From positions 1-33,351 of the forward strand of contig JACRFA010000012.1 of NCBI GenBank assembly GCA_016218065.1: DNA of 33,351 nt. The letters run 5' to 3'. Within the stretch, counting starts at the first letter, position 1. Each line of letters opens with the position of its first letter. Positions 1 to 21,790 of this stretch are shown here, one piece after another. The position numbers and the translations under genes were made by a program. The DNA comes from Ignavibacteriota bacterium. Its GTDB lineage: Bacteria > Bacteroidota > Ignavibacteria > UBA10030 > UBA6906. The notes under the pieces are model-generated. The model made no database searches, had not been told where the DNA came from, and worked only from the letters and a program-made list of their open reading frames with translations.

Positions 1-90
1 ACCAATGGAGCGTCGGTCATAATTCTAAGGGACATCGTGCTTGATTGCATCTTAGGGACTGTGCAGGAAGATATGGAGAGTTTCTCGTAA
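1..90 (+). CDS. 3' end of an upstream cassette gene, function unknown (partial)
   Basis: The first base opens a reading frame that runs 29 codons to a TAA at 88-90 and ends in ...QEDMESFS. Only the C-terminus is inside the window, so no family can be named. It is called a gene because it lies in the same orientation as, and 28 bases before, an attC-like site. That is the arrangement of the next two genes as well, so it is most likely the ORF of the preceding integron cassette. A chance open frame of this length cannot be excluded. Confidence 0.45.
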   Translation, partial: TNGASVIILRDIVLDCILGTVQEDMESFS

Positions 91-118
91 ACAAGAATCG
101 GGCGAAGCCAGATGGGTC

Positions 119-310
119 GCCTAACCAGCGGCTCAAGCTGATCCCGACAGAATGCGTCGGGACTGACTGGGAAGCGTCAGCGTGGCATCAGATGAAGAGT
201 CGAAGTCCGATGCAAACAGATTAAATCAACCCACGCTCGCGGTGTACGATGCGGAGAGTTCTCGTTGCCGCTCTACGAGTCATAGACAGCTTAGCCGCGA
301 ACCGTTAGGG
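119..310 (+). other. attC-like integron recombination site 1 (192 bp)
   Basis: The site begins with R'' GCCTAAC (119-125) and ends with the complementary R' GTTAGGG (304-310). Inside these, the L'' arm GCGGCTCAAGCTG pairs with the L' arm CAGCTTAGCCGC. The only irregularity is one extra C in L'', directly before AAGC. Canonical attC sites have their unpaired base at this same place (for example TTCAAGCC against GGCTTAA in aadA cassettes). The central part holds a hairpin, CCCGAC...GTCGGG at about 142-159. At 192 bp it is longer than the usual 57-141 bp attC. The interior is repeated, diverged, at about 1670-1835, which suggests that a dispersed repeat lengthened it. Confidence 0.75.
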
Positions 311-320
311 CGCAAAACAA

Positions 321-749
321 ATGAATACTTCGCTCCTAATAGTACTGATCGACGTTGTCGTGGTGGTAATCAGTGGCACATTGCGCCCGCCGTTTCATCT
401 TCTTGTGTCACTGCTTGTGATCCTTCTCGTAGTAGCGGCACTCAACACTGTTTTGTACGAAGAGCATTTACGGAAAGCGATCTTACTCAACTACGGTCTG
501 TTGTTGATCAATTACGTTGTCATAAATACATTCAACGGTGTTGGCAAAGACTACGAATCTTGGGGCGTAGTGAATCTGTTCTTCTTCATGGAATTCACAC
601 TTGCATCGCTGATCATGATTGTGTATTGCTTCGTCTTTGAATCGCGCACGACCAATATCCTTCTCAAATCTGGCTCTGTCGTATTTTACTCGATGCTTGC
701 ATCATTCTCTGCATTCTATGTTATCGAAAACTACGTGTTTGCGCCCTAA
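321..749 (+). CDS. Cassette-encoded small integral membrane protein, function unknown
   Basis: The product has 142 residues and I do not recognise its family. It is very hydrophobic, with four to five probable membrane helices at about residues 4-20, 26-45, 53-72, 84-107 and 117-137. The loops are short and charged (YEEHLRK, NGVGKDYES, ESRTT). There is no signal peptidase site, so it should sit in the inner membrane. The ATG lies 10 bases after the R' box of the preceding attC-like site. The TAA stop is embedded in the R'' box (CCCTAAC) of the following one. This layout is typical of integron cassettes, which hold one gene and little else. No clear ribosome-binding site precedes the ATG, as in many cassette genes, so expression probably depends on the array context. 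Confidence 0.7.
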   Translation: MNTSLLIVLIDVVVVVISGTLRPPFHLLVSLLVILLVVAALNTVLYEEHLRKAILLNYGLLLINYVVINTFNGVGKDYESWGVVNLFFFMEFTLASLIMIVYCFVFESRTTNILLKSGSVVFYSMLASFSAFYVIENYVFAP

Positions 750-920
750 CCAGCGCATCAAGCTGACGGATTTGAGCGTGGAGAAGTTTAATGCTCACCC
801 GCCTACGTTCAAAATCAACTCCGGCGGGCAAGCGCACGAAAATAATTCATTCATATCAACGCTCGGTGCAGAGCATGCCGGAGAAATTCTACTCCGCAGC
901 TTAGCCGCGAGCCGTTAGGG
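744..920 (+). other. attC-like integron recombination site 2 (177 bp)
   Basis: R'' CCCTAAC (744-750) and R' GTTAGGG (914-920) are perfect inverted complements. The L'' arm CATCAAGCTG (757-766) pairs with the L' arm CAGCTTAG (897-904), again leaving one unpaired C before AAGC. The terminal boxes match site 1 closely, but the interior between about 770 and 890 is unrelated to it. Conserved ends with a variable middle is the signature of attC sites in one array. Weaker internal pairing (CCCGCC with GGCGGG, about 798-831) would extend the hairpin. The stop codon of the preceding gene lies inside R''. Confidence 0.78.
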
Positions 921-929
921 CGCATTGAA

Positions 930-1565
930 ATGGCGAACATCGATCTTATGAAGACAGTGGCGTGTTGGACGCTAGTCCTGATATTCGCGGGAAGAGTCAA
1001 TGCCCAAGAAATCGGGATTGCACCAACGAAGATTTGGACTGATAACAAAGAAATTGGAAATCCTATTGGATTCAGCGTTCATTTGTTTCAGCCAATTTGG
1101 AAAATCGGATTGAAGCTTGAATATTCCTTTGCGCGCAATGAGCGAAGCTACTACGGAATTCTGGTATCGGGTTTTATGATGTATCCCAGTCAGTATTCGC
1201 CCGAACCAATACTAAGTCAATCCTCATTTTGGTCGGTCGAATTGAGTCTCATCATTCCAAGAATTGTTGCCTATCAAGAGTTCGCTATGAATGTGGGTGG
1301 TGGTGGTTCGGTGAACAGGTTCAAAGGTGAGAGGTTGGGCACGCTCTCAAAAAGAAAGGTGTCTCTATTTAGAGAAGACAAGTTTGGTGTCTTCTATGCG
1401 ATATCAGTTTCAAGAGAGAAGGTATTTGGAGTTCCGCTGAAGCTAGAGGTGTTGTTCAAGCATAAGAATCTGATGGGAAGTGTGTATGCAACCGACATTG
1501 AACAATCATTCGAAGGTTCGATGGATATGAAAGAAATCCAGTTCAATATCTCATACGTTTTCTAA
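930..1565 (+). CDS. Cassette-encoded exported protein, probably outer-membrane beta-barrel
   Basis: The product has 211 residues and matches no family I can name. The N-terminus is a signal peptide: a hydrophobic run TVACWTLVLIFAG ends in VNAQ, a likely signal peptidase I site near residue 25. The mature part has alternating hydrophobic and polar residues, many Tyr, Phe and Gly, and ends in an aromatic strand (IQFNISYVF). A terminal Phe is typical of outer-membrane barrels, so a small barrel is inferred. The ATG at 930 lies nine bases after the R' box of attC-like site 2. The internal ATG at 948 would give a more standard signal peptide and is an alternative start. This is the last gene of the visible array. 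Confidence 0.65.
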   Translation: MANIDLMKTVACWTLVLIFAGRVNAQEIGIAPTKIWTDNKEIGNPIGFSVHLFQPIWKIGLKLEYSFARNERSYYGILVSGFMMYPSQYSPEPILSQSSFWSVELSLIIPRIVAYQEFAMNVGGGGSVNRFKGERLGTLSKRKVSLFREDKFGVFYAISVSREKVFGVPLKLEVLFKHKNLMGSVYATDIEQSFEGSMDMKEIQFNISYVF

Positions 1566-1570
1566 CAATG

Positions 1571-1850
1571 CGCCCTAAACCAGCGGCTCCCCGACAGAAA
1601 GCATTGGGCTCCCGCTCCAGACCAGCGGGATGCAAAAAGCGCATTTCGCACATGGCGCTCAACAAGGAAAAGCTGATCCCGACAAAATGCGTCGGGACTG
1701 ACTGAGCAACGTCAGCGTGACCTCAGATGAAAGAGTTGAAGTCCGGTACAAACAGATCAATCATCAATGCTCGTGGTGTGTACGATGGGGAGAGTTTTCG
1801 TTTGCCGCCCGCTCTACGAGTCGTAGACCTGCTTCAGAGAATTTTGTGGC
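1571..1850 (+). repeat. Decayed attC-like site with diverged copy of the site-1 interior
   Basis: Six bases after the preceding stop, CGCCCTAAACCAGCGGCTC repeats the left end of attC-like site 1, with one extra A in the R'' box. About 80 unrelated bases interrupt it. From about 1670 to 1835 the sequence again follows the interior of site 1 (139-285) with clear but imperfect identity, including the hairpin CCCGAC...GTCGGG. The matching right end with R' GTTAGGG is missing, so the site is probably inactive. The pair GCCGCCCGC (about 1804) and GGCGGGCAGG (about 1849) adds another possible stem. This looks like the ragged end of the array. Confidence 0.6.
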
Positions 1851-4625: not shown

Positions 4626-6755
4626 TTATCGATAGAAAATATCGCGATTGTCTTCGATGTCGGCAGACTCTTTCATCTTCGTGAGCCACTCGCCGATGTA
4701 TCTGTTCCGCTTCTCCTGCAGCATCTGGCTCTGCAAAGTTTCGCGCTGCGCTGCATACGCCGTAGAGTCGAGCGTGCCTCTTGCGATAAGCTGAATGAGA
4801 TACACGCCGCGCGTACTTCCGACGGGCTGAGAGATTTCGCCGGGCTTCAGCGCTTCCGCCGCGCCGAAGAAATTCATGTCACGCCCGACGCCGGGTACAC
4901 CGCCGCTCATCACGAAGTCGCCGGTCCTTTGTACGTGTAAACGCGTATCGAGCGTCGAGAGTTTCGTGAGGCTGTCGCCGGCAGCGAGTTTCGACCGGAG
5001 CTGCGAGGCAATCTCCTTTGTCTTTTCGGTCTTTTTCTTGCGGAGCGCCTGCGGCTTGAGGGCGTCTTTCAGCTCGTCAAACGATCGCACGCCTGCATCC
5101 TTCGCCTCGACGACCGTGAAGACTGCCCAGCCATTCGGAATGGAATACGGCTCGCTCACCTCGCCGACTTTTCCCTTGAACGCCCATTTCACCGCCGATT
5201 CGTTCATGCCGAGTCCGGGAATCATGCCGCCCTTTTCCTGCACTTCGGCTTCACGCGGCTCAACGTTGATGGACTTCGCTTCTTTCGTGAACTCAGATTC
5301 GCGCGCAATCACGGCAAAGTCTTTTGAGCGCTCATACACATCGTTGCGTGTTTGTGGACTTGCAATGATCTTGGAGATGATGCGCGAAACCTTCAGTTCT
5401 CTCGCGTCCTTGCCTGTCACTTTGATGATATGGAATCCGAACGCTGTGCGCACAGGCCCGACTACTTCACCAACCCTGGCGTTGAACGTGGCGTTTTCAA
5501 ATTCCTTTACCATTCTTCCTTTGGAAAACCAACCGAGGTCGCCGCCCTTCTGTGCGTTGCTGGGATCTTTCGAATACTTTGATGCTAGCTCGGCAAAGTC
5601 CTTTCCTGATTTGGCGAGCTTGGCGACTTCAGCCGCGGTTGCTTTCGCCTGCACGGAATCGGGTCCGGCCGGAATCTGGATGAGGATGTGACTCGCTTTC
5701 ACGAACTCCGTGGTCCCCTTCCGCTCCTCCAATACTTTCATCAGATGATAACCATCGGGCTGCGTCAAAGGCCCGACAACGTCGCCGACTTTGGCAGAGA
5801 ATACCGCCGCTTCAATGTCCGGACCCAGCTCGCCGTGTTTGAACCATGTGCCGCTATCCGGCTTTTCGGAACGCTCTAGCGTAAGCATAATGAAGTCCGC
5901 GCCGCCTGTCGCACTTTTCGCGTCTTCTTCAATCGACGACTTGGCCTCGGCCGAATCGCCGGCTGAAGGATTTTCATAGAATGCCACGTACTTGAGCTTT
6001 CGCGACGCTTCGACTTTGTACTGATCGAGGTTCTCCTGATAGAACGCCTTCACGTCGTCATCCGTAACGCTCACCTCTTCGTCCTTGACGAACGCATTCG
6101 GATCGAGGAACGCGAACAGCGCATCGTACTTCACGCTCTGATCGGCGAACCGGCGTTTGATCTCGCATTCGCTGACGTGAACCGATGCCGTAATGATGCT
6201 TTGCAGCTTTTCACTTAACCGGCGCTGGCGCAGATTTTTTTCATAGTTGACAAGCCACGCTGTACCTGCGGTCGGATTCCCTTCTTCGCGAATGAACTGA
6301 TTGGGATTGGCGAGAAATTGATCGTACAGGTCGCGTCGGAAGTTGCCGGTGGAATCGATGAAATTTCGTTTCAGGTCTTCGGGTGGATTCTCCCCGCGCA
6401 CCCAATCGGCAATCTCCTGATCGGGGACCATGAGTCCGAGTTTCTTGATTTCCCGCTCCACAAGAGTTTGTGTGACGAATTGATCCCACACCTGCTGGCG
6501 GATTTGCTTTTGCGCGTTTTCGTCCGGCTCAGCGCCGGTTTGTTGTTTCTGGGCGTCACTCGCGTTCTTGACCAGGTCGCTGAATTCCTGATACGTAATC
6601 TTTCTGCCTTCAACAGAACCGATATCGTTGGAACGACCTGAGCTAAGCCCAAGGTAGTCCATTCCCCATTCAAAAATAATCGTAATCAGAAACGCGATGA
6701 GAAGTCCGAAAAGGATAACTGGCATGCTCTCCCGCATGCGGGTCATGATAGGCAT
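4626..6755 (-). CDS. Membrane-anchored peptidylprolyl isomerase (PpiD/SurA-like, parvulin type)
   Basis: The 709-residue protein has one N-terminal membrane helix (about residues 12-32, VILFGLLIAFLITIIF) and a periplasmic body, as in PpiD. A SurA_N-like chaperone region covers about residues 45-215. The best parvulin domain is at about 350-450 (VKASHILIQIP, GGDLGWFSKGRMVKEFE, FGFHIIKVTG). A degenerate parvulin-like unit precedes it (DSGTWFKHGELGPDIEAAVF, GYHLMKVLEE), and one or two more follow (GGMIPGLGMNESAVKWAF; MNFFGAAEALKPGEIS). It should catalyse cis-trans proline isomerisation and act as a folding chaperone for exported proteins. It is the first gene of the minus-strand operon and diverges from secD, itself an export gene. 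Confidence 0.9.
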   Translation of the reverse strand: MPIMTRMRESMPVILFGLLIAFLITIIFEWGMDYLGLSSGRSNDIGSVEGRKITYQEFSDLVKNASDAQKQQTGAEPDENAQKQIRQQVWDQFVTQTLVEREIKKLGLMVPDQEIADWVRGENPPEDLKRNFIDSTGNFRRDLYDQFLANPNQFIREEGNPTAGTAWLVNYEKNLRQRRLSEKLQSIITASVHVSECEIKRRFADQSVKYDALFAFLDPNAFVKDEEVSVTDDDVKAFYQENLDQYKVEASRKLKYVAFYENPSAGDSAEAKSSIEEDAKSATGGADFIMLTLERSEKPDSGTWFKHGELGPDIEAAVFSAKVGDVVGPLTQPDGYHLMKVLEERKGTTEFVKASHILIQIPAGPDSVQAKATAAEVAKLAKSGKDFAELASKYSKDPSNAQKGGDLGWFSKGRMVKEFENATFNARVGEVVGPVRTAFGFHIIKVTGKDARELKVSRIISKIIASPQTRNDVYERSKDFAVIARESEFTKEAKSINVEPREAEVQEKGGMIPGLGMNESAVKWAFKGKVGEVSEPYSIPNGWAVFTVVEAKDAGVRSFDELKDALKPQALRKKKTEKTKEIASQLRSKLAAGDSLTKLSTLDTRLHVQRTGDFVMSGGVPGVGRDMNFFGAAEALKPGEISQPVGSTRGVYLIQLIARGTLDSTAYAAQRETLQSQMLQEKRNRYIGEWLTKMKESADIEDNRDIFYR

Positions 6756-6850
6756 AAAACAGACAACCTCTAGCTGAACATGGAAGGATACTGAACTAAG
6801 AAAGTAAAATGAATATAACCGAAAGGCTCAGTAGATGCAATGCTTAATTG

Positions 6851-6881
6851 TTGACTTTCAGGGGAGATTGGATTACATTTG
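6851..6881 (+). promoter_or_regulatory. Probable secD promoter
   Basis: TTGACT at 6851-6856, a 17-base spacer, and TACATT at 6874-6879 fit a primary-sigma promoter. The same -10 region reads TACATTTG, a perfect match to the TANNTTTG element of Bacteroidota promoters. The secD GTG follows 72 bases later. The 198-base gap also has to hold the promoter of the divergent parvulin gene, which I could not place. Confidence 0.55.
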
Positions 6882-6953
6882 ATCGCTTAAAAATTTGCAA
6901 AATGTTGTTCCTACCACACTCATTTCCCGATTTTTTGAATTCCGGAGGTTGTA

Positions 6954-8741
6954 GTGCGAAAGTATGCGTTTAGAATTAGTATTGTTGCTGCCGCGTTGCT
7001 CATCGGCATCTATTATCTGTGGCCGACGTATGTCGACTATCGCTTCCAGCAGCAACTCAAATCGCTCACGGGGGCAGACAGCCTGAAGTTCTATGAGGAA
7101 CATGAGGCTGATATCCGCGAGAACAGGGCACGCCGCATCAAGCTTGGGCTCGATTTGCAAGGCGGGATGCGCGTTGTTCTGGAGGTGAACACCCTGAAGC
7201 TGATTGAGGATCTCGCCAAGAACAAGGACGAGCAGTTCACGCAGCTGGCTCAGGAAGTGCGAAACGAACTCCTGACCTCCGAAGAGACTCCCGTCGCCAT
7301 CATGAAGCGCAAGTTCGATGAGCGGGGAATCCGGATGGGCAAGTACTATCGCTCCATTCGCGAAACCAACGACGAGGTCGCTTCCTATCTTGAAGATGAA
7401 TCGAAGAAGGCGATCGACCGTGCAATCGAAATCGTGCGCAACCGCGTCGACCAGTACGGCGTGTCGGAGCCGTCCATTCAGAAACTCGGCGGCACGCGTA
7501 TTATCGTCGAGTTGCCGGGCGTTTCGAACGAGCAAGAAGTGCGTGACCTGGTCGGGAAGACGGCGCTCCTCGAGTTCAAGTTGCTGAAAGAGCCTGAACA
7601 GGTCCAGCGTGCGCTCATGGAAATCGACCGCATCATTGCGGGCAAAACCGACACTACCGCGGCCGACACGACCAAAGCATTGAGCGACACTACCGCGCGA
7701 GCGCATCCGTTCACATCTCTGCTCACCGGTCTTGGCGGCGATATCGCCGTCTCGTCAGAAAACATCGATAGAGTGAAGCGCTTGCTCGCCCGCGATGATG
7801 TGAAGCGCGGCATGCCGCCGGACATGCAAGTTCTCTTCGGCGCAAAATCCACGATCGTGCAGGGCGTTGCCTACACGCCTATCTATTGCGTCAAAGCGCA
7901 GGCCGAGCTTGAAGGCGGCGTTGTCGTCAACGCGAAGGCAAGCATCGACCCCAACACGGCGGGTCATGTCGTCGATATGGAGATGAACAACGAAGGCTCG
8001 AAGGATTGGGCGCGCATCACCGGAGCAAACATCAAGAAGCGCATTGCGATTGTAATGGACAACGCTGTGTTCTCAGCTCCCGTCGTGCAGCAAAAAATCA
8101 TTGGCGGCCGCTCGCAAATCAGCGGCATGTCGAATCTCGACGAAGCGCGACTCATTGAGATTGTGCTGAAGGCCGGCGCGTTGCCCGCTCCCGTTGAGAT
8201 TGCTGAGCAGCGTTCCGTCGGTCCGTCGCTCGGCGAAGACTCGATTCGCAGCGGATTATTTTCGTCGGGTCTTGCCACGCTCCTGACCATTCTCTTCATG
8301 ATCATTTACTATAGAACAGGCGGCGCCGTTGCGGATGTCGCCGTAGTCTTCTGTCTGATTCTGCTGCTTGCTGTGCTCGCCGCATTTCAAGGCACACTGA
8401 CGCTGCCGGGCATCGCCGGTATTATTCTCACGTTAGCAGTGGCGGTCGACGCGAACGTGCTGATCTACGAACGCGTACGCGAGGAACAAGCAACGGGCAA
8501 AACGCTCCGCGCGGCAATCGACGCAGGCTACGAGAAGGCGTTCACCGCGATCTTCGACTCGAACCTCACGACATTCATCACCGGCGTTATTCTGTTTCAG
8601 TTCGGAACCGGGCCTGTACAAGGCTTCGCGTTGACGCTGATGATCGGTATCGCAGCAAGTATGTTCACCGCGATCTTCATCACAAGAATTATTTTCAACG
8701 TCATGACGGATAAGTCAGGCGCGAAGGTGAGCTTCGGCTAA
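6954..8741 (+). CDS. secD: Protein translocase subunit SecD
   Basis: SecD works with SecF and SecYEG, using the proton gradient to pull exported proteins across the inner membrane. The 595 residues hold an N-terminal membrane helix (about 7-23), the hallmark GLDLQGG (65-71) of the periplasmic P1 domain, and a large periplasmic region. Five C-terminal helices follow, starting near SGLFSSGLATLLTILFMIIYY. The proton-path segment has AVAVDANVLIYERVREE and GYEKAFTAIFDSNLTT, the conserved SecD signatures. The start is GTG 6954 with GGAGG at 6944-6948. secF follows after 51 bases and a STAS gene after that, all closed by one terminator. Confidence 0.97.
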   Translation: MRKYAFRISIVAAALLIGIYYLWPTYVDYRFQQQLKSLTGADSLKFYEEHEADIRENRARRIKLGLDLQGGMRVVLEVNTLKLIEDLAKNKDEQFTQLAQEVRNELLTSEETPVAIMKRKFDERGIRMGKYYRSIRETNDEVASYLEDESKKAIDRAIEIVRNRVDQYGVSEPSIQKLGGTRIIVELPGVSNEQEVRDLVGKTALLEFKLLKEPEQVQRALMEIDRIIAGKTDTTAADTTKALSDTTARAHPFTSLLTGLGGDIAVSSENIDRVKRLLARDDVKRGMPPDMQVLFGAKSTIVQGVAYTPIYCVKAQAELEGGVVVNAKASIDPNTAGHVVDMEMNNEGSKDWARITGANIKKRIAIVMDNAVFSAPVVQQKIIGGRSQISGMSNLDEARLIEIVLKAGALPAPVEIAEQRSVGPSLGEDSIRSGLFSSGLATLLTILFMIIYYRTGGAVADVAVVFCLILLLAVLAAFQGTLTLPGIAGIILTLAVAVDANVLIYERVREEQATGKTLRAAIDAGYEKAFTAIFDSNLTTFITGVILFQFGTGPVQGFALTLMIGIAASMFTAIFITRIIFNVMTDKSGAKVSFG

Positions 8742-17737: not shown

Positions 17738-20700
17738 TCAGGACTTGTCCAGAACTTCCCGGATCTTGTGCAGCACATGCGAAGGATGGTACGGTTTGCT
17801 GATGACGTGCTGCAATCCTTCGCGTGTCATACGCGCCTTGACGGCAGGATCGACGAACCCGCTCGCGAGAATGAATCTGACCGCGGGGTTTAACGACTTG
17901 AGCATCAGGAAAAGCTCGTCGCCGCCAAGCCGCGGAAGGCCGAGATCGGAAATGACCAGCGCGATTTCAGATCGATGCCGCGCATAGATTTCCGCGCCTG
18001 CGATGCCGTCACCTGCCATCAACACTTTGTAGCCCTGCGCAGTGAGGAACTCCGCCACAAGATCCATCAGCATCGGTTCGTCTTCCACAAAGAGAATCGT
18101 CTCGCTGCCGCGCACGTCGCCGCCTGACTGCTGCTCTCCGGTTTCGTGCGTCTCCTCGCGATGCAGCGCCGGAAAGAAGATGCTGAACGTCGTTCCTTCC
18201 CCCGACTCGCTTTGCACATCGATGAATCCTTTGTGCGCCTGCACGACGCCATAGACAATCGCGAGTCCCAATCCTGTTCCTTTGCCGCGTTCCTTTGTGG
18301 TGAAGAACGGCTCGAAGATACGTTCGCGCGTCGAATCGCTCATGCCGAAGCCGGTATCGCGTACGGTGACGACGACATACTCAGGCACCGATGCACCCGA
18401 CCATTGTGCGCGCAAAGCCTCGCCGCTTGTCGTTGCGGTGGCGATGGTGATTATTCCGCCGGCAGGCATTGCATCGCGGGCATTCACGCAAAGATTGAGC
18501 AGCACCTGATGCATCTGGTTTGTATCGGCAAGAATTGGAGGAACCTTCTCGGACAAAACTGCTTCCACATGAATCGACTTTGGAAACGTCTCCTGCAGAA
18601 GTTTCGCAAGCTCGGCGATCACATCGTTGACCCGAACAGACTCGAGCAACACTTCGGTCTTGCGCGCAAACGTCAGCAGTTGCTTGACGACGCCGACGCC
18701 GCGTTCCGTTGCTCGCAGAATTGCATCGACGTGCCGCGTCTCCTGATCGGGAAGCGCCACCGCTGTGCCAAGCAGCGATGCGTGTCCGAGGACGATGCCG
18801 AGAATGTTATTGAAGTCATGCGCGATGCCGCTGGCCAGCGTGCCGAGACTTTCCATTTTTTGGGATTGCAGCAACTGGTGCTCAAGTCGCTTCTGTTCGC
18901 TTTGATCGAACACATACCCCATGATTTGAAGTAATGTTCCTTCTTCGTCGAACGTGCCGATGATATTCTCGAGCACATGTACTTGCGTCCCGTCCACCTT
19001 CCGGAGCGTCAGTTCCGTATTCAGCAGTTTCTTCTTTTTGTAGAGCGACTCAATCATGAGCTGACGTTGTTCGGGTCCCTGATACAACACACGGGCGCCG
19101 ATCTCCAGCGCTTGTTCAAGAGAATTGAAATCGAAGATGCGAAGGAACGACGGATTGCAGTCAAGGAATCTCCCCTCCGGCGTCGAGACAAAGATACCGG
19201 TGAGATCCTCATGAAAGTACCGTCGGTATTTTTCTTCGGAAAGTCGCAGGGCGTTTTCCGTGTTCTTGCGATCGGAAATGCTGCGGGCAGATCCCATAAT
19301 GGATTTGAAATTTCCGGCATCATCATACACAGTGCTGGCCTTGATCTCAGTCCAGACTGTTGAGCCATCCTTCCGGCGCAATTCGACTTCAAATGAACGC
19401 ATGAGAAACTCGCGTTTTGCAATCGCCTCGCGCGCTTCGAGGATGTGTCTCCGTGCAATTGTCGCAGACTCGCGTGTGAGCAGATGCTCCAGGGAGAGCC
19501 TCACCGCGTCGTCGGGCGCATAGCCAAGCATGCTGGTGACTGAAGGACTCGCATACGTAAGCGTGCCGCTGGTATCCATCAGCCAGATAACGTCGCTGGA
19601 GTTTTCAGCAAGAAGTCGGTAGAGTTCTTCACTTCTCCGCAGCTTCTCTTCCGCCAGCTTCCGTTCGGTGATGTCGATCGCCATGCCGACGACGCCGTTG
19701 AGTCGTCCGGTCGAATCGTAGTAGGGCGAATAGATGATGTCGAAGATCGAGCCGGCGAGTGGAGTGACCGAGCGGCTTTGAGCACCGGCGAGCGCCTGCC
19801 GAATGCTCGCGATGATATCCGGATAGTCTTTGTACATTTCGAGCGCTGAAACCCCGACGACCTGTCCGGGTTTCAAGCCGAGCTTCGTCAGTCCGCGACC
19901 ATCGGAGAGTAGGAAGGTGCCGACCCTGTCGAGGATGAACACGATCGCCTCGGCGTTCTCGACAACCGTACGGAGCTTCTGCTCGCTTTCCCGAAGCGCT
20001 TCTTCCGCGCGCTTGCGTTCGGTGATGTCATTCGCTACCGACAACACGCCTGTCTCGCCGTTCGGCAGAGGCACACAGGTCTCGCGCAGCTCGATGATGC
20101 ATGTCGAACCGTCCTTCCGTAGGTTTGCCACTTCATGTTCAAGTGTTTGGCCTGAGAGAATTTTCTGGAGATGCCCGCTAACCGACTCGTGTTCCGAGGG
20201 TGGGACGAGCATCCGAACATTCTTTCCCAATAACTCCTCTTTGGTATGGCGATGCGAACGGCAGAAGGCTTCGTTCGCTTCGAGAATCTTTGCGTCTGAA
20301 TCGAGCAGCGTGATACCAGCAGGAGAAAGGTCGAACAACGTTCGATAGCGTTGTTCGTTGGCAACCAGTTGCGCCTCGGCGCGCTTGCGGTGAGTAATAT
20401 CGCGATCGCTGCCCCGGTAGCCGCGCAGATTGCCGGCGGCATCGATGATGGGAACGCCGCTTGTCTCCAGCACAATCTGATGACCGTCTTTGTGCAGATT
20501 GATGTTTTCCAGATTGTTGAATGCACGATTCGTCCGAACCGCATCATCAAAAATCTCGCGCACCCGACTCGCCTCCGCAGACGGCATCAGGTCGAACGGC
20601 GTCTTCCCAAGAACTTCGCCGGGTGCGTAGCCAAGCATCACCATGATTTGCGGACTGACATACGTGTACACGCCGGACGCGTCTGTCTCCCAGATAAAGT

Positions 20701-21664
20701 CATTCGTTGTTTCGACGAGCGCACGAAACTTCTCTTCGCTTTCGCGCAACGACTCCTGACTTCTCCTGCGCACTTCGGCATTTACCAGAATTTCCGCAAG
20801 CACCTGAAGCAACATCACCTCGGTATTGGTGAACTCGTGCACCTGGAGCACCGCATCGAAGCCCACGAAGCCCAGCAGGCGTCCGCCGTAAATCATCGGA
20901 ATCAGAATGAGCGACCGAATCTGTTGCGACTCGAGAATCTCGCGAAAGCGTCCTGCGGGCAGCGCGTCGACACGCGGCACGGTAAAGTAATCGCCGCGCC
21001 GATGCGCCTCAACAGCATCGGGAAGGACGTCGAAGGGGATATCCTGTGAGTTTTCGATTTCACGCGAAATGCCCTCCGCACACCATTCGTACGTGTTGCT
21101 CATCGTCCGCGCAACAAAATCATAATCAAACACATAGACGCGGTCAGCATGAATAAACGAGCCGACCGTTCCCAGCGCGTCGACGATGTATTCATCCAAC
21201 TGATCGATGGGCACGTTGACAAACTTCGTCGCCATGCGGATCAGAACTTGCTGCAACTGCACACTGTCGTATGGCAAAATCTCAGGCCGGCGTTTGACAT
21301 CGCTCTCACGAATCACCTGCAGCTCGACGCACGCACCGTTGCATTGGACTGCATGAGAAATCACATCGACGTCGAGAATGCGTTCGGCTTTCGTCTTGTG
21401 CTGAACGGAAATTCCGGCGCGTGGACTCTCCTGTTCGTCGGAACGAAGCTGCGGCGCCTTCTGCAGACAAATATCGTGCACGGTCAGCCGGAGGAATTCA
21501 TCGCGGCTGTAGCCATAAACTTTGATGGCGGCGTCATTCACGTCAAGAAACGCGAGGGAGGTCCGATCGAAGATCCACATCGGCTGGTGACTGCTGCGGA
21601 AGAAAAACTGAAACGCCTGGTCGAGCGGGAGTGGTTCCGTGCGATTGTTCGTACGTTGAGTCAT
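17738..21664 (-). CDS. Soluble hybrid sensor histidine kinase: PAS, GAF, five PAS, HisKA, HATPase, receiver
   Basis: This 1308-residue protein has no membrane helix and should be cytoplasmic. In approximate order it has PAS 15-120, GAF 135-305, PAS units ending near 430, 555, 680, 810 and 930, then HisKA with the H-box [11 protein letters not shown] near 945-955. The ATPase domain follows ([32 protein letters not shown]), and last a receiver with [19 protein letters not shown] (the Asp is the probable phosphate acceptor) and ISKPYHP. Several PAS units are joined by the usual DITERK-type linkers. Signals are unknown; redox, light or small ligands are typical. I chose ATG 21664 (AAGG just upstream). 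An in-frame ATG at 21751 adds 29 residues that do not look like a domain. The neighbouring glycosylase gene lies 12 bases downstream. Confidence 0.93.
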
Positions 21665-21790
21665 TGCACCTTGATGGTAAGGGAGTAAGCTCAGCAGCGC
21701 ACTGGGGGAAACGCCACGTGCCAAGTTAGTGCGAACAGCCGAGAGATGCAACTACCTCGCGGCTTTCGGAATCTCCATCCTCGCGCACAA

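Follow-up and report, generated by a model that had tools for sequence, protein, structure and literature searches.

Integrons of Ignavibacteriae and Chlorobi have been reported previously (PMC9024848 and its predecessor). The attC sites of mobile integrons range from 56 to 141 bp, and those of sedentary integrons are mostly 120–129 bp, a distribution driven by Vibrio (PMC5371416). The window analyzed here is the whole of contig C15 (33,351 bp), part of a 5.17 Mb assembly of 319 contigs that is 97.5% complete. Its left edge is a genuine integron gene-cassette array in an Ignavibacteria-like chromosome. We are highly confident that, in this bacterium of the class Ignavibacteria, the array is the distal end of a sedentary chromosomal integron or else a group of attC sites that descends from such an integron and has no integrase. 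The cassette-array reading and the FCB-group host had both been put forward in an initial annotation of the sequence; the former is borne out by site anatomy, folds and gene order, and the latter by the class-level relatives, which are Ignavibacteria. The locus shares with the sedentary integrons of Ignavibacteriae and Chlorobi the host group, the IntI family, the attC architecture and single-gene cassettes in one orientation, but this assembly has no integrase and the sites are longer than both published size ranges. This kind of system was already known, also from this host group; what is new is this particular member, together with signs that the class commonly has long attC sites.

Two sites lie on the forward strand, at 119–310 (site 1, 192 bp) and 744–920 (site 2, 177 bp). 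Site 1 is made up of R'' GCCTAAC (119–125), L'' GGCT(C)AAGCTG (130–140, with C134 as the extra base), L' CAGCTTAGCC (287–296) and R' GTTAGGG (304–310). The corresponding elements of site 2 are R'' CCCTAAC (744–750), an L'' with extra base C759 followed by AAGCTG (760–765), L' CAGCTTAGC (897–905) and R' GTTAGGG (914–920). As in attC sites generally (RYYYAAC / GTTRRRY), R'' and R' are complementary in both sites, the pair GCCTAAC/GTTAGGG of site 1 having one mismatch, at the seventh pair. L'' and L' pair around an extrahelical base, C134 or C759, which is a G in the folded bottom strand. Folding of the bottom strands as single-stranded DNA paired the R and L boxes and bulged the G in both cases, with z-scores against dinucleotide shuffles of −3.56 for site 1 (0 of 200 shuffles as stable) and −2.51 for site 2 (1 of 200). 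The positions, matched R boxes, paired L arms, unpaired C before AAGC and site lengths given in the initial annotation were thus all recovered, and the fold that it had proposed as a check brings the R and L boxes together in both sites. The top strands are almost as stable when folded (z = −2.14 for site 1 and −2.46 for site 2), so the choice of the bottom strand rests on known attC biology and not on fold energies. When the window was compared with Rfam at gathering thresholds, no family matched.

Single genes in one orientation lie between the sites, as had also been noted initially. The first 304 bases are the 3' end of a further cassette on the forward strand that is cut by the contig edge; positions 75–141 are 96% identical to the sequence leading into a site on contig C201. 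One complete gene cassette (cassette 1, 305–914, forward strand) opens with TTAGGG and closes with the G of the R' that follows, includes site 2, and encodes a hydrophobic 142-residue protein (321–749) whose stop codon falls inside R''; this ORF matched neither Pfam nor PADLOC. Cassette 2 (915–1862) is the last of the array. It has lost its right boundary, the third site described below having no R', and carries an ORF for 211 residues on the same strand (930–1565) that has an N-terminal hydrophobic stretch and no Pfam match. Seven of the ten ORFs tested from cassette regions matched no Pfam family, and a PADLOC run on the cassette ORFs gave no match. Between the end of the array and a gene for a DUF4440 protein, an intergenic segment (1878–2040) contains inverted CACAGATT / AATCTGTGG motifs. 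Farther along the window (17738–21751) lies the gene for a large hybrid histidine kinase of 1337 residues with several PAS domains, one GAF domain and one receiver domain.

The ends of each cassette are complementary to one another, a feature that had gone unnoticed in the initial annotation and that reaches well past the 7-base core. The head of cassette 1, GTTAGGGCGCAAA, is the reverse complement of its tail, TTTGCGCCCTAAC, at 13 of 13 positions, and the head of cassette 2, TTAGGGCGCATTG, matches the reverse complement of CAATGCGCCCTAA equally (13 of 13). Comparable matches were found for cassettes on contigs C189 and C88. Across eleven cassettes from this genome and from G059, a genome of the same order, head and tail agree on average at 5.45 of the 7 positions outside the core when both belong to one cassette and at 2.6 when they belong to different cassettes, and none of 20,000 permutations reached the observed sum; a single cassette has a score of only 1, which probably reflects undetected sites between its ends. 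Such complementarity is expected of a unit that was once circular, with both ends in one folded site. We considered whether it is a peculiarity of this lineage and rejected the idea: the class 1 cassette aadB has 12 complementary head and tail bases and aadA1 shows the same with mismatches. The property thus belongs to cassettes in general and is not a novelty. Class 1 cassettes also share the R and L boxes, the bulged base and the cut site with the units studied here. In contrast, the attC of aadA1 is about 60 bp compared with 177–192 bp in the window, and the window's array is chromosomal, does not lie on a mobile element and contains no resistance gene. Each unit has a short gene and an attC site in the same orientation and ends like those of a circle. 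It is highly improbable that the sites are members of a small transposon family, or scattered palindromic repeats, that merely look like attC. They are indeed repeated and palindromic, with further small palindromes in their loops, but repeats of that sort would not account for head and tail complementarity specific to each cassette, for one gene per interval in one orientation or for the conserved bulged base; in G059, moreover, the same sites are arrayed with a true intI, and the intI-linked arrays of relatives contradict such an origin.

To the right of cassette 2 we found a degenerate third site on the forward strand (about 1573–1860) that had been overlooked initially. It is 82.6% identical to site 1 over 161 bp and begins with an R''-like CCCTAAA, but an insert of about 80 bases (1590–1669) splits L'', the remainder of which (AAGCTG) lies at 1670–1675, and R' is absent. 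The R''/R' complementarity of sites 1 and 2 is thus missing, and folding produced no attC structure (z = −0.59). Site 3 probably represents the right end of the array in a decayed state. Its insert has seven near-full copies, 93–98% identical, every one of them inside an attC-like site of this genome; 20 other genomes of the family contained no copy. An independent mobile element that targets attC was considered as the source of the insert and not retained: four copies have an identical deletion downstream of them, a pattern that points instead to descent of one attC variant.

The initial annotation had made its reading depend on an integrase and further sites to the left. No intact intI is present in the assembly; many further sites are, but on other contigs. 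About a dozen related sites are spread over at least six of these (C189, C88, C269, C264, C201 and C286). A first, looser attC detector gave 16 matches in a reversed control, and counts were therefore made with a stricter one that requires R pairing and an L stem with a bulge and that found 40 sites compared with 4 in shuffled sequence of the same loci. The strict detector reported site 1 and missed site 2 because the extra base is placed slightly differently, so that site 2 rests on manual reading and its fold. Contig C189 bears six related sites, some of them damaged. In the loops of the related sites, shared modules and small palindromes are combined in a mosaic fashion. The longest attC-like site (C189 9306–9648, locus L016) has 343 bases and several inserted modules; it is strongly folded (z = −4.58), but into separate hairpins, and R and L do not come together in the minimum-energy structure. 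This failure to pair, with the damage to site 3 and to several sites elsewhere, suggests that part of the array has decayed. About three copies of a dispersed repeat, CGCGGTTGGACGAATA...TGAACCGCAATGACGCAAAGGACGCGAC, lie immediately to the left of the C189 array (6540–7130, L016), and the repeat recurs at the contig edge of C286 (1–407, L021); it is probably one reason for the assembly breaks at these two contigs. A search for an overlap between the contig ends of C15 and C189 that would join their arrays found none.

In a profile search with TIGR02249 (cut-off 265), no protein of the 97.5%-complete assembly reached the cut-off, and an intI with the IntI-specific patch beside the array, as in a complete integron, is accordingly absent from it. 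The best integron-integrase match in the genome is a protein encoded on contig C263, and on that ground an XerC-like recombinase of this type might be thought to move the cassettes in place of IntI. We regard this as very unlikely, since the C263 protein lacks the IntI-specific patch and is only 34–36% identical to the IntIs aligned with it, its contig has no site of the window's type by the pattern used, and a real IntI is present in sister species. Judged by the content of the assembly, the array is a CALIN (a cluster of attC sites lacking an integrase): sites 1 and 2 lie about 430 bp apart on a contig without intI, and a CALIN comprises at least two nearby attC sites on such a contig. Here the array begins at the contig edge, however, and a split integron would look alike. 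An intI missed through assembly is possible, because the window is an entire contig whose array starts at that edge.

As a special case of the reading preferred above, the species may have lost intI and retained dispersed attC clusters that are decaying and immobile. The lack of an IntI above the cut-off in so complete an assembly would fit such a relic, as would sites distributed over at least seven contigs, some deep inside long ones (C88, C269), and the damage to site 3 and to the insert-bearing sites. Contig C286 shares synteny with the contig that bears intI in G001, a sister species; it likewise holds a site of the window's kind, and a search of 12 kb of C286 found no intI remnant. On the other hand, sites 1 and 2 show no damage, 13-base end complementarity is preserved in their cassettes, and arrays reach contig ends (C15 and C286 on the left, C189 on the right), where assemblies of near-identical attC sites break. 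With arrays at contig ends, loss of intI and a gap in the assembly have the same appearance, and the same artefact has been described for draft genomes (PMC9024848). We give the relic somewhat less than an even chance.

The array, whether distal end or derived cluster, has close counterparts with an integrase. Both other species of the genus encode a full-length IntI (467 bits in G001 and 433 bits in G002 with TIGR02249), as does G015 of the same family (436 bits), and in a class-wide sample 69 of 391 genomes have an IntI above the cut-off. The G002 protein aligns end to end with the solved Vibrio IntI4 (2a3v; 308 bits). Four aligned IntIs are 47–51% identical to the class 1 IntI1, and all have the IntI patch. 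The divergent integrase suggested in the initial annotation thus found no support: the IntIs of the two sister species are 50–51% identical to IntI1, possess the patch and exceed the TIGR02249 cut-off, and judged by their sequences the integrases of the relatives are ordinary IntI members. G059 links intI to the window's type of site: one of its contigs carries the gene together with at least six sites that share the consensus seen in the window (155–197 bp; GCCTAAC-CAGG-CGCT(C)AAGCTG ... CAGCTTAGCG ... GTTAGGC). The sites lie on the 5' side of intI and point away from it in the classical divergent layout, which was also seen in G015; several kilobases separate intI from the nearest attC reported by the detector. 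G002 also has one site of the window's attC type, and there intI faces, at the end of its contig, the sequence GCGCCCTAAC, which is complementary to the motif at the heads of the window's cassettes. In G001, intI (contig C38, 31569–32510; L026, L031) has an ordinary gene on its 5' side, and the contig stops only 163 bases past its 3' end; unlike the classical layout, the array of G001 may be on the 3' side. A GTDB scan for the 5' arm of the window's attC yielded 14 stretches, including Ignavibacteria, Chlorobi and Bacteroidetes records, and an IntI above the cut-off was found in five of the eight genomes searched from it. The records include the G002 genome, an uncultured Chlorobi bacterium; that of Ignavibacteriae bacterium fen_1300 appears to be the same as G211, a genome of the window's order (identical IntI contig, coordinates and score).

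Long attC sites, described initially as unusual, do exceed the usual size but are not peculiar to the window, as intI contigs across much of the class carry sites of 146–226 bp. On contigs with intI, lengths are 146–147 bp in G015, 150 bp in G211, 155–197 bp in G059, 185–201 bp in G295 and 186–188 bp in G316, and reach 221–226 bp in G138, G203 and G226; shorter sites occur in G053 (60 bp) and G182 (126 bp), and some single, low-scoring detections in this survey are probably due to chance. The window is therefore typical of its class. Loci L090, L094 and L096, from other families of the class, have sites of 185–226 bp with the conserved bulged C and an L box AACCCG or CACCCG on intI contigs, and are candidates for a class-specific attC model. 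The default size ceiling of IntegronFinder is near 200 bp, so sites of 221–226 bp would be missed. A search of the open literature for attC sites above 200 bp found none, which does not show that none exists.

In the preferred reading the array would work as follows. Each unit is a short gene with an attC site behind it, and the site's bottom strand folds into an imperfect hairpin with a bulged G; the tyrosine recombinase IntI would cut R' between G and TTAGGG, and the cassette would be inserted or excised as a circle. Judging from sequence, an IntI similar to those of the relatives probably acted on the window's cassettes. A large central loop can favor branched structures that fail to rebuild the recombinogenic site (PMC5371416). 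We tentatively propose, at rather less than even odds, that ordinary IntIs across the class work on attC sites of about 150–226 bp with large modular central loops, and that such loops hinder recombination less than has been thought. If so, the integron content of the class would be under-counted, since these sites lie beyond the sizes behind most folding and detection models. The array confirms that cassette reservoirs exist in non-proteobacterial FCB chromosomes and points to a frequent occurrence of attC sites near 200 bp in this class; sites of about 200 bp, if functional, would be useful test substrates.
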